Below are positions 20,094-49,627 of a DNA stretch of 64,000 nt, piece by piece. Every line of letters starts with the position of its first letter. The first letter of the stretch is position 1. This DNA is from Nitratireductor sp. B36. GTDB taxonomy: Bacteria; Pseudomonadota; Alphaproteobacteria; Rhizobiales; Rhizobiaceae. The notes below the pieces were generated by a model, which made no database searches, was not told where the DNA came from, and worked only from the letters and a program-made list of their open reading frames with translations. The stretch is from assembly GCF_020833685.1 (NCBI RefSeq), contig NZ_JACKZY010000002.1, forward strand, positions 248,001 to 312,000. Reading direction: 5' to 3'. Position numbers and translations under genes: made by a program.

Positions 20094-21710
20094 ATGGAAC
20101 CGGCCATTCTTTTCGTCCTCGTTTTGCTCCTCCTGTTCCTCGGGGTGCCGGTTGCGGTGGCCCTGGGGCTCTCGTCGCTTATCATCATCGCGTTCTTTTC
20201 CAGCGATTCCATCTCCTCGGTGGCGCTTCAGCTTTTCACGGCTTCGCAGAACTACACGCTTCTGGCGATTCCGTTCTTCATTCTGGCGTCCGCCTTCATG
20301 TCGACGGGTGGCGTTGCGCGACGCATCATCCGATTCGCCATCGCTTCCGTCGGCCATTTTCGCGGTGGTCTGGCAATGGCGTCTGTGCTGGCATGCATGA
20401 TGTTTGCCGCCCTTTCCGGTTCGTCGCCGGCAACGGTGGTTGCGATTGGTACAATAGCCATCGCCGGTATGCGGCAGGTTGGATACTCCAAGGAGTTTGC
20501 GGCCGGCATCATCGCCAATGCGGGCACCCTTGGCATTCTGATACCGCCGTCCATCGTGATGGTCGTTTATTCGGCGGCCACGGATGTGTCTGTGGGGCGG
20601 ATGTTTCTGGCCGGTGTAGTGCCCGGGCTCGTTGCAGGTCTGATGCTGATGGTTGCCATCTATGTGATGGCACGGGTCCGCAACCTCCCGGCCGAGGAAT
20701 GGAAAGGCTTTCACGAGATCGTCGAGGGCGGCAAGGAGGCGGGCTGGGGCCTTTTTTTGATCATCATCATTCTCGGCGGCATTTATGGCGGAGTTTTCAC
20801 GCCGACCGAAGCGGCTGCCGTTGCCGCAGTGTATTCCTTCGCGGTGGCCTTGTTCGTTTATCGCGACATGGGACCCATGAAGAACGAGCGGTGGGTCAAG
20901 GAGGAAGATGGCCCGCGCGCAAGGGTGGGATTTTCGGCCACGGTCTATGCGCTCGCATTCTTCTTTGTCTGGATGATTTTGAGCTTTTTCCTGACAGCGG
21001 ACTGGGACGGGGTGACGCTGCAGGGGCGTACGGTGACCGGGGTCGTCCTCTCTCTGGTGGCCATGGTGGCTTATGCAGTGTGGCGCAGCGGGGATGGGCC
21101 CGCGGCACTGCCGCGATTGCTTTCGGCGAGCCTGCCGATCTGGCGGCGCAATCTGAGCCTGATGGGACGGAATTTCCTGCGCGCCTTCTTCAACGAAGAG
21201 ACACGGAAAGTGACGGTCGATGCTGCGCGCACCACGGTCATGCTGATGTTCATCATCGTCAACGCGCTACTGTTCGCCCATGTGCTTACGGCCGAACGGA
21301 TCCCCCAGGCCATCACAGGTCTCATGGTCGATGCCGGTTTCACCTGGTTTACCTTCCTGATCGCCGTGAATCTGCTTCTGCTTCTGGGAGGGCAGTTCAT
21401 GGAGCCATCAGGCCTTCTTCTTATCGTTGCGCCAGTTGTGTTCCCCATCGCTATGGAACTGGGTGTGGATCCGGTTCACCTCGGCATCATCATGGTGGTG
21501 AACATGGAAATCGGCATGATCACGCCGCCAATCGGGCTCAATCTGTTCGTGACAAGCGGCATAACCGGCATGAGCCTGATCCAGGTGGTGCGTGCGGCGG
21601 CACCATTCGTGGCGGTTCTGTTTATCTTCCTGATACTGGTTACCTATATGCCGGTTATGTCAACATGGCTGCCATACAGCCTTATGGGGCCTGAGATCGT
21701 GACAAGGTAA
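20094..21710 (+). CDS. dctM: TRAP transporter large permease DctM
   Basis: 538 residues; usual DctM proteins have about 430. The N-terminal half has LLAIPFFILASAFMSTGG and AALSGSSPATVVAIG; the C-terminal half has LGIIMVVNMEIGMITPPIGLNLF. The extra ~110 residues lie in the middle (about 265-385) and include additional hydrophobic segments (VYALAFFFVWMILSFFL, VVLSLVAMVAYAVW). The subunit forms the Na+-driven transport channel with DctQ. The 5-base gap to dctQ suggests coupling. Confidence 0.92.
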   Translation: MEPAILFVLVLLLLFLGVPVAVALGLSSLIIIAFFSSDSISSVALQLFTASQNYTLLAIPFFILASAFMSTGGVARRIIRFAIASVGHFRGGLAMASVLACMMFAALSGSSPATVVAIGTIAIAGMRQVGYSKEFAAGIIANAGTLGILIPPSIVMVVYSAATDVSVGRMFLAGVVPGLVAGLMLMVAIYVMARVRNLPAEEWKGFHEIVEGGKEAGWGLFLIIIILGGIYGGVFTPTEAAAVAAVYSFAVALFVYRDMGPMKNERWVKEEDGPRARVGFSATVYALAFFFVWMILSFFLTADWDGVTLQGRTVTGVVLSLVAMVAYAVWRSGDGPAALPRLLSASLPIWRRNLSLMGRNFLRAFFNEETRKVTVDAARTTVMLMFIIVNALLFAHVLTAERIPQAITGLMVDAGFTWFTFLIAVNLLLLLGGQFMEPSGLLLIVAPVVFPIAMELGVDPVHLGIIMVVNMEIGMITPPIGLNLFVTSGITGMSLIQVVRAAAPFVAVLFIFLILVTYMPVMSTWLPYSLMGPEIVTR

Positions 21711-21730
21711 CTGCGATTTGAGGAATTTCG

Positions 21731-21746
21731 TTAAGTAAACGTTAAC
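21731..21746 (+). promoter_or_regulatory. CtrA box TTAA-N7-TTAAC
   Basis: TTAA (21731-21734), seven bases, TTAAC (21742-21746): a full match to the alphaproteobacterial CtrA consensus in intergenic DNA. A GANTC site (GATTC, 21761-21765), the CcrM methylation target, lies 15 bases further on. Placed right before the candidate small RNA. Confidence 0.65.
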
Positions 21747-21767
21747 GATTGGGCAGTTAGGATTCTG

Positions 21768-21845
21768 ACTGTCGGATCGGCTTTCCTCCTCCCAAGCACG
21801 GTTCGAAACGGGGCGGCCGACCAGTGGCCGCCTCGTCCGTTTTCA
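21768..21845 (+). ncRNA. Candidate small RNA with CCUCCUCCC hairpin loop
   Basis: Hairpin one pairs TCGGATCG (21772-21779) and GCTT (21780-21783) with AAGC (21794-21797) and CGGTTCGA (21799-21806). Its loop TCCTCCTCCC (21784-21793) is complementary to Shine-Dalgarno sequences. Hairpin two pairs CGGGGCGGCC (21809-21818) with GGCCGCCTCG (21826-21835) and is followed by TTTT at 21840, a terminator form. A CtrA box lies just upstream. Loops with CCUCCUCCC are known in alphaproteobacterial sRNA families. The 5' end is a guess, and it could instead be the leader of the downstream acetyltransferase gene. Confidence 0.55.
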
Positions 21846-21964
21846 TTGCTCCACTCTGTCCATGCTCGAGTGCTGTCTGGCGCAGGTCTGCATGTCCTGC
21901 TGGGCCTTTCGTGCGGCGCGCCACCATGCTTTGCAGAACAATGACAAGGCTGGAGAACATCCGT

Positions 21965-22639
21965 ATGCAGACCGATCTCATCAAATGGAGCACCAGACCG
22001 CGCCCGGAACGCGAGGTGCTTGAGGGACGTAACGTCAGGCTCGAGCCCCTTGATCCGGTGCTCCATGGCAATGGTCTTTATGCCGTTTCCACGGTTGCCG
22101 ATGCGGATGAGCGATTTCGCTGGCTGGCAGAATATCCGCCGGAAAGCGAGGAGGCGTTCAGACCCTGGCTTGAAAAGGCGGCCAAGAGCGCCGATCCGTT
22201 TTTCTACGCAGTGATCGACAGGGCGACAGGACATGTCGGCGGCCGGCAGGCACTGATGCGTATCGACCAGGCCAATGGTGTTATAGAGGCTGGAAACATT
22301 TATTGGGGACCGGGGATATCGCGCAGTGTGCGGGCGACCGAGGCGCTCTATCTTTTTGCCAGCTACGTCTTTGATGATCTGGGGTACAGGCGCTTCGAAT
22401 GGAAGTGCAACAATGCCAATCTGCCCTCGCGTCGCGCCGCAGAGCGGTTCGGTTTCAAGTTTGAAGGCGTCTTCCGTCAGCATATGATCGTAAAGGGTGA
22501 GAACCGCGACACGGCCTGGTACTCGATAATCGACAGCGAATGGCCGGCGCTAAAAAGTGCATTTGACGCATGGCTTGATCCAGCCAACTTCGATAAGGAA
22601 GGCCGTCAGAAGAAAAGGCTGGAAGCTTTCAGGGACTGA
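21965..22639 (+). CDS. RimJ/RimL-type GNAT acetyltransferase
   Basis: 224 residues of the ribosomal-protein-acetyltransferase-like GNAT subgroup. VLEGRNVRLEPLDP is the first strand motif; ANGVIEAGNIYWGPG and the CoA-binding part RSVRATEALYLFASYVFDDLG follow; KCNNANLPSRRAAERFGFKFEG is the classic C-terminal RimJ signature. ATG 21965 has GGAG about 12 bases upstream. Substrate unknown. The next small gene follows 34 bases later. Confidence 0.88.
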   Translation: MQTDLIKWSTRPRPEREVLEGRNVRLEPLDPVLHGNGLYAVSTVADADERFRWLAEYPPESEEAFRPWLEKAAKSADPFFYAVIDRATGHVGGRQALMRIDQANGVIEAGNIYWGPGISRSVRATEALYLFASYVFDDLGYRRFEWKCNNANLPSRRAAERFGFKFEGVFRQHMIVKGENRDTAWYSIIDSEWPALKSAFDAWLDPANFDKEGRQKKRLEAFRD

Positions 22640-26943: not shown

Positions 26944-27378
26944 GCCCAAAGTCGCACGTGCCTGTGGGTGTCCGCCGGGCCTCGAAAATGGCGAGGAAAC
27001 CGGTACGGTACCTGGACCTAACCGCTCCAGTCGGTCTGATGGCCAACCATCAAACCGAGGACATCTTGAAGCAACGACGGTGCGGGCCTTTCTGGTGTCT
27101 GCCGGCTGTCCAAAAGCCGGGGTTACTGAAGAGGCACACCTTCATTGCCGGCAGTGCGGTTGGGATCTCCCATCCAAAGCTGAGGCAGACAAAGCGCATC
27201 TTCGCCGCGAGGCGGGAATGCATCGTAGCGCGTTATCGCATGACCTGGTTCCGGTGCTCTCCACCTGCCGGCTCCCGTGTGCGCATGCCGCGCCCTTTGT
27301 CCACCGCGGAAGCAAGGTTCGCTTTCGCAGTTCGAAGCTTCGGTAACGCGGTCTGAAAGCCGCGATTGGAGAGACACA
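26944..27378 (+). promoter_or_regulatory. Long structured leader of the speF-motif kind upstream of ornithine decarboxylase
   Basis: The 435 bp hold no convincing gene but several helices: CCTCG/CGAGG (26980-26996), GATGG-CCAA-CCATC (27038-27051), CCGGCT/AGCCGG (27102-27120), and the symmetrical GGTACGGTACC (27002-27012). The speF RNA motif is described from alphaproteobacterial ornithine decarboxylase leaders, and position, size and helix richness fit. Open frames across it overlap each other and look unlike proteins. I could not run a covariance model. Confidence 0.6.
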
Positions 27379-49573: not shown

Positions 49574-49627
49574 ATGGTTAACGATAGGTAGATGCACATG
49601 GTTAACAGGCTATTAATGGAGGTTAAC
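49574..49627 (-). promoter_or_regulatory. Cluster of CtrA-type boxes upstream of flagellin 1
   Basis: GGTTAAC occurs three times (49576, 49600, 49621), spaced 24 and 21 bp, about two helical turns. Two copies form the octamer TTAACCAT on the minus strand, and 49602-49616 is a full TTAA-N7-TTAA box. Confidence 0.7.

Follow-up and report, generated by a model that had tools for sequence, protein, structure and literature searches.

The cuckoo RNAs reportedly consist of two to four adjacent hairpins, each of which carries an anti-Shine–Dalgarno (aSD) motif. Within this family ar14, or NfeR1 (RF02344), presents CCUCCUCCC in hairpin loops on stems of variable sequence. It is described with three motif hairpins and as silencing mRNAs through this motif (PMC7143759, PMC10746234), and is transcribed from a sigma-70 promoter and tied to nitrogen status. 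Hairpins with a CCUCCUCCC loop also make up CcsR1-4 of Rhodobacter sphaeroides (RF02791), which are reported to lie behind the DUF1127 gene ccaF1, to be transcribed from an RpoHI/RpoHII promoter and to be processed by RNase E (PMC10253847). MmgR (ar8; RF00519, 'suhB') is given as an RNA of ∼77 nt with one aSD stretch and a terminator (PMC7143759). Two further RNAs bring in the cell cycle. EcpR1 of Sinorhizobium is a cell-cycle-linked small RNA that is reported to repress dnaA and gcrA (PMC4414408), and CcnA of Caulobacter crescentus provides a described precedent for a noncoding RNA with a CtrA box (PMC8959179). The CtrA site in S. meliloti is given as TAA-N7-TTAAC (PMC3616915).

Here we describe a locus in a 64-kb stretch of Nitratireductor DNA (the whole of which is called the window), where an aSD loop and a CtrA box lie together. 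It is probably a CtrA-controlled gene for a trans-acting aSD small RNA of ∼75 nt, with CtrA∼P turning it on. As judged by comparison of sequences, the RNA structure and the exposed motif are conserved, and the CtrA box and the −10 element keep their positions; we infer that the RNA is transcribed, in which direction CtrA controls it, that its loop acts as an aSD, and on which mRNAs. In the open-licence literature, as far as the accessible parts of its texts extend, no paper was recognised as describing this RNA, or a CtrA box and an aSD loop together.

The locus and its features

The RNA is located in a gap of 254 bases (21711–21964) between the genes for a TRAP transporter subunit, dctM, and a GNAT acetyltransferase (Table 1), overlapped by mechanical open reading frames only. 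The first-pass annotation had pointed to a perfect TTAA-N7-TTAAC box, a GANTC site, hairpins and a TTTT run between 21731 and 21845, and all of these letters are present. The minimum free energy (MFE) fold of the RNA, at −36.2 kcal/mol, is the structure that had been drawn there. The eight-pair arm of the motif hairpin includes two G-U wobbles.

The CCTCCTCCC motif occurs once in the 64 kb, both strands counted, and a perfect CtrA box at two places, of which the RNA locus is one. GANTC occurs 94 times, and one copy alone is unremarkable. The second perfect box (49601–49616, minus strand) lies upstream of a flagellin gene and adjoins the end of what appears to be another flagellin frame, with further GTTAAC stretches around 49577–49627. 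Elsewhere in the window (26944–27226, plus strand) an ar45 small RNA (RF02347, 166.9 bits) is followed directly by a speF leader (RF00518, 91.5 bits).

Table 1. Features of the small RNA locus and its neighbours (positions in the window)
Feature	Position	Strand	Basis and remarks
Upstream neighbour, TRAP transporter dctM	20094..21710	+	PF06808
CtrA box TTAAGTAAACGTTAAC (TTAA-N7-TTAAC)	21731..21746	+	Letters; conserved upstream of model matches; covers expected −35 region
−10-like hexamer TAGGAT	21758..21763	+	Predicted from the 71-locus promoter table
GANTC site (GATTC)	21761..21765	.	Letters and locus counts; over-represented yet not conserved
Predicted small RNA, ∼75 nt	21769..21843	+	Covariance model match (G000:C2:269769-269843); predicted ends, ± a few bases, 5′ end from the −10
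Motif hairpin, arms TCGGATCG+GCTT / AAGC+CGGTTCGA, one bulged base	21772..21806	+	
Left arm, TCGGATCG then GCTT	21772..21779, 21780..21783	+	
Loop UCCUCCUCCC, aSD motif (TCCTCCTCCC in DNA letters)	21784..21793	+	Unpaired in family folds
Right arm, AAGC, unpaired base, then CGGTTCGA	21794..21797, 21798, 21799..21806	+	
GC-rich terminator hairpin	21808..21836	+	
T run (TTTT)	21840..21843	+	Three bases past terminator stem; weak at this locus, while many other genera have a stronger run
Downstream neighbour, GNAT acetyltransferase	21965..22639	+	PF13302; start predicted (∼21965)

Conservation and distribution of the RNA

DNA similar to the gap is found in 12 of 40 genomes, that of the window included. 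In the alignment of the 12 the only changes in the box core and in the hairpin core (ATCGGC to AAGC) are short insertions, and most of the sequence between the cores and past the terminator drifts; the invariance is partly one of ascertainment, because the genomes were selected by similarity over the same stretch. A strict pattern, TTAA-N7-TTAAC-N20-50-CCTCCTCCC, matches 59 of the 297 genomes of the family, in 29 of 109 genera, and its reversed control matches 2. Most of the matches have a TCGGATCGGC-like arm ahead of the motif, and in many a GCGCATCATTT-like stretch lies between the box and the hairpin; the pattern requires neither. At least two matches, in G173 (locus L041, left out of the alignments) and in G048, look like chance, and that in G196 has no counterpart among the listed matches to the covariance model.

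This model, R1, has 74 positions and was built from 32 sequences that cover the RNA body and no upstream DNA. It gives exactly one match per genome in all 10 Nitratireductor genomes searched. At E ≤ 0.001 it matches 134 of the 297 family genomes (63 of 109 genera). At 40 bits or above there are matches in 90 genomes (37 genera), one in each by a manual count of rows, and the strict pattern also matches 56 of these. The distribution is patchy, since 207 of the 297 genomes have no R1 match of at least 40 bits. Over 397 genomes of the order, searched at E ≤ 1e-5, 11 have a match, 10 from the same family and one (G429) from outside it. The latter scores 38.1 bits and has a hairpin with a CCTCCTCCC loop; no CtrA box is present there (best 5/9), and it may be another cuckoo-type hairpin. 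In a class sample of 385 genomes no match was found beyond the genome of the window, with search filters that are fast and can miss weak members. To judge from these searches, the boxed RNA is specific, within the genome samples covered, to the family of Nitratireductor and Mesorhizobium, which we take to be Rhizobiaceae in the GTDB sense. Comparison indicates a real small RNA gene, kept in relatives together with its CtrA box and its aSD loop. A candidate from Mesorhizobium huakuii, MH_s12, could, to judge by its description alone, be an ortholog of the boxed RNA that is expressed; it is listed with 85 nt, both neighbours on the same strand and no Rfam family (PMC5596092, Table 1).

Structure of the RNA

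The stems are supported by an alignment of 72 sequences (69 distinct), which is biased towards the model structure because it was fitted to it. In this alignment 97.6% of the cells of the 14 base pairs are standard pairs and nine of the 14 have changes on both sides; neither value is reached in any of 500 shuffles, and shifting the partner by one base lowers the pairing to 52–60%. An alignment of 32 made on sequence only has double changes at seven of the 14 pairs. Of the two G-U wobbles in the stem at the window locus, one is represented in relatives by A-U or G-C and the other by U-A or C-G.

The motif is unpaired in 71 of the 72 MFE folds, where shorter variants such as CUCCUCCC are counted; the 72nd sequence (L119) has a shorter motif that was missed by the motif search. 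Folding z-scores average −3.6, and 65 of 71 are lower than −2. A single motif hairpin is followed by a motif-free terminator. The T run of the terminator is good in many genera; in Nitratireductor it is short and set three bases off the stem. The first-pass annotation had proposed a small RNA gene with an exposed aSD loop and a CtrA box, and an alignment of the gap in relatives that would look for covarying stems and a constant loop. Relatives do keep both loop and box, the stem changes are compensatory, and the proposal is borne out to that extent.

The promoter region

For an independent view of the box, R1 matches were drawn from genomes that the strict pattern had missed (40 loci taken). 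A CtrA box of at least 8/9 (eight of its nine fixed bases), counted within a 15-base start window, begins 35–40 bases upstream in 30 of 33 such matches of at least 41 bits (29 of 32 in a first set, plus L075 of G219 with 8/9). As background, windows of equal size were slid over the flanks of these 40 loci, and 0 of 10,166 reach 8/9. The three misses are L099 and L109, each with 7/9, and L117 with 4/9. A 34th pattern-missed genome (L121) has an 8/9 box at 40.1 bits, and among weaker R1 matches of 35 to 40 bits five of eight have a box of at least 8/9.

The promoter table comprises 71 box-anchored loci, 31 reached through the model and 40 through DNA similarity or box pattern, and box conservation within it is partly by construction because of how these 40 were picked. 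Excluded from it are L005 and L045 (duplicates), L041, and L117 (no box), the last of which counts as a miss in the box test above. In these 71 loci a −10-like hexamer, cATcaT, starts 26 bases past the start of the box, with A at the second place in 62 and T at the sixth in 63. In the window the corresponding TAGGAT is weak and lies one base farther from the box than the family hexamer; a scan of the locus with the sigma-70 consensus found no promoter. The expected −35 falls inside the CtrA box, and apart from the box no −35 hexamer is conserved over the 71 loci, as expected where an activator replaces the −35.

This geometry bears on the sign of the control. A repressor could sit on the expected −35 equally well, and in that case the RNA would be made at low CtrA∼P and be off in predivisional cells, and would still be an aSD small RNA. 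Promoters that CtrA activates usually have the box over the −35 and a −10 at a distance from it, however, and the lack of a −35 hexamer conserved apart from the box is likewise as seen with an activator; we consider repression by CtrA unlikely. As an activator on the −35, CtrA∼P would most likely act in the CtrA phase of the cell cycle, with transcription starting near 21768–21771.

CtrA is present in the genome (NF045991, 422 bits; cut-off 350), and the window locus has the TTAA-N7-TTAAC sequence of the CtrA regulon as a perfect box at promoter distance. Perfect boxes occur at 20 distinct places in the genome and are thus rare. Their genome-wide number (29 strand matches, against 19 in the reversed control) is not telling alone. 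Some of them precede ftsK, ftsE (TIGR02673, over cut-off), rpoD, flagellin and outer-membrane barrel genes, as well as a PdhS-like kinase gene (cut short by the locus edge, below cut-off). These genes fit a CtrA regulon by their sequence assignments; in S. meliloti rpoD, ftsE, ftsK and fla genes are reported to carry CtrA motifs (PMC3616915). One further perfect box (L200/L201, C5:111458-111474) has no frame of at least 90 codons starting within 350 bases on its plus side.

Control by CcrM, put forward in the first-pass annotation, would be expected to show as a GANTC site kept in the promoter. Such a site follows the box at a distance of up to 20 nt in 15 of the 71 loci, at differing places, and in five of the 10 Nitratireductor loci. 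Set against 208 of 11,423 background windows (1.8%) this is an approximately tenfold over-representation, in a count that is inflated by the relatedness of the loci. The site is missing in 56 of the 71. The genome has a CcrM-like enzyme (NF050803, 651 bits, below its cut-off of 830).

Genomic context

Within the fetched flanks of the 71 loci an SDR gene is found downstream in 47 and a DUF533 (TerB-like) gene upstream in 35. The neighbours seen in the window are less frequent, dctM being upstream in 17 and a GNAT gene downstream in 13, and SDR, dctM and GNAT genes are all absent near the RNA in seven. In two loci (L042 and L044) dctM and SDR occur together, so that they connect the commoner arrangement with that of Nitratireductor.

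The frequent SDR frame is on the same strand as the RNA, and its longest form often starts 50–150 bases past the RNA start, as might be found if the element acted in cis on the downstream gene, as a leader or attenuator, and not as a free RNA. Yet the downstream gene varies, down to the loci with GNAT and those with none of the three genes, and the aSD loop is kept regardless of it. There is also a terminator at the end of the unit, and its T run is good in many genera. The changing neighbours and the terminator together speak against leader function, and we regard it as very unlikely.

Proposed mechanism and candidate targets

As a free, trans-acting RNA, the molecule would work through its single motif hairpin, which is predicted to keep UCCUCCUCCC single-stranded, and transcription would stop at the next hairpin, the terminator. 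The loop would then pair with G-rich Shine–Dalgarno (SD) sequences (for example GGGAGGAGGA) in a set of mRNAs, which would keep ribosomes from binding. The sequence GGGAGGA-N5-12-ATG occurs 90 times in the genome and 16 times in the reversed control. Twenty stretches were selected for long complementarity; these have 17 frames of at least 40 codons, and 16 were scanned with Pfam. The candidate targets include a sodium:solute symporter and its DUF4212 partner, an MFS protein, two DctP proteins, two ABC permeases, an acyl-CoA synthetase and an aldehyde dehydrogenase; their pairing energies are not evidence, because the candidates were picked for complementarity.

Autoregulation of CtrA through the SD of ctrA was considered and rejected. 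Its best pairing is −12.5 kcal/mol, compared with −17.8 to −24.3 in ten candidates picked for complementarity, a comparison that is circular, and we make no target claim from it.

The loop might be put to another use, titrating an RNA-binding protein (for example of the DUF1127, CcaF1 type) with no pairing to mRNA. CcaF1 is reported to promote the RNase E-mediated maturation of CcsR1 RNA in Rhodobacter (PMC10253847), and a DUF1127 gene precedes the ar14 copies of the present genome. NfeR1, however, is reported to silence mRNAs via the same motif (PMC7143759), and nothing in the analysis points to such a protein binding this RNA, so that we find a protein decoy highly improbable.

Comparison with known small RNAs

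The first-pass annotation had suggested a search against Rfam. At the gathering threshold Rfam 15 gives no family for the window locus, nor for the one-hairpin relatives scanned, and an annotation based on Rfam would therefore miss the RNA. A permissive search of the window returns sub-threshold matches to ar14 and CcsR1 and three weaker ones. A search of the plasmid collection gives no match.

The best Rfam match of the window RNA is ar14, with 23.2 bits against a gathering score of 58.8. One-hairpin relatives have 26–30 bits with ar14 where listed, and all of the 37 relatives scanned are below 58.8 except L127, a true ar14 that came in as a weak R1 match. The window RNA could nonetheless be a shortened ar14, and thus a true family member, a question of membership that is compatible with the proposed mechanism. 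Like ar14 it has CCUCCUCCC unpaired in a hairpin loop on a variable stem that covaries. In contrast to ar14 it has one motif hairpin and then a motif-free terminator, a CtrA box in place of the sigma-70 promoter, and no DUF1127 context. Moreover, the same genome has three full tandem copies of ar14 elsewhere (L001–L003, C2:895161-895615, minus strand, 89–96 bits) and a near-threshold fourth (58 bits). The three tandem copies sit behind the gene of a 46-residue DUF1127 protein, in an array that resembles the ccaF1-CcsR1-4 arrangement of Rhodobacter, and have no CtrA box upstream (best 5/9). We think that membership of ar14 is not very likely. The cuckoo-type likeness drawn in the first-pass annotation therefore holds as an analogy, in the shared loop, and fails as an assignment, by score and by number of hairpins.

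Three loci (L123, L124 and L128, around position 1960–2120) have more than one CCUCC-type motif and an 8/9 CtrA box upstream. They are weak with both ar14 (31–37 bits) and R1, and are possible links between ar14 and the boxed RNA.

The CCUCCUCCC loop is shared with CcsR1-4 as well, and here the score is 16.4 bits against 65.3; the window RNA stands alone between dctM and GNAT with no neighbouring DUF1127 gene. MmgR is similar in its length, single aSD stretch and terminator, but RF00519 (gathering score 41 bits) gives no match to the window RNA up to E = 5. Identity with MmgR had been raised by a 26-bit match in the relative L109, and was rejected because the genome has its own MmgR elsewhere (L135, C2:220966-221045, minus strand, 65 bits). 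An 8/9 CtrA-like box lies 66 bases upstream of the latter.

EcpR1 resembles the window RNA as a small RNA linked to the cell cycle. It had been offered in the first-pass annotation as an example of the aSD loop, and this does not hold, its loop motifs being given as UCCGCCGCAUCU and UCCUCG (PMC3927594), not CCUCCUCCC. CcnA, likened here by description alone, differs in its 182 nt and in its position at the replication origin.

By score, number of motif hairpins and context the window RNA appears to lie outside the ar14/cuckoo family, and by analogy it should work like its members. Its target set would probably overlap that of the ar14/NfeR1 RNAs, with the same seed under other promoters. CtrA is known mainly for regulating protein genes. 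Over many genera no feature of the present promoter is more constant than its CtrA box, and no part of the RNA more constant than the stretch that mimics the ribosomal anti-SD; sequence comparison thus suggests a small RNA by which the cell cycle can put a brake on translation. It is quite possible, if still tentative, that the RNA is the founder of an unnamed family in which the CtrA circuit directly gates translation, the cuckoo aSD seed having been placed under CtrA. Cell-cycle phase and stress or nutrient signals would in that event converge on one SD-dependent set of mRNAs, for uptake systems and catabolic genes. If transcribed as proposed, the RNA would form a direct link from cell cycle to translation in the Nitratireductor/Mesorhizobium group, using one seed that cuckoo RNAs such as NfeR1 place under different promoters.
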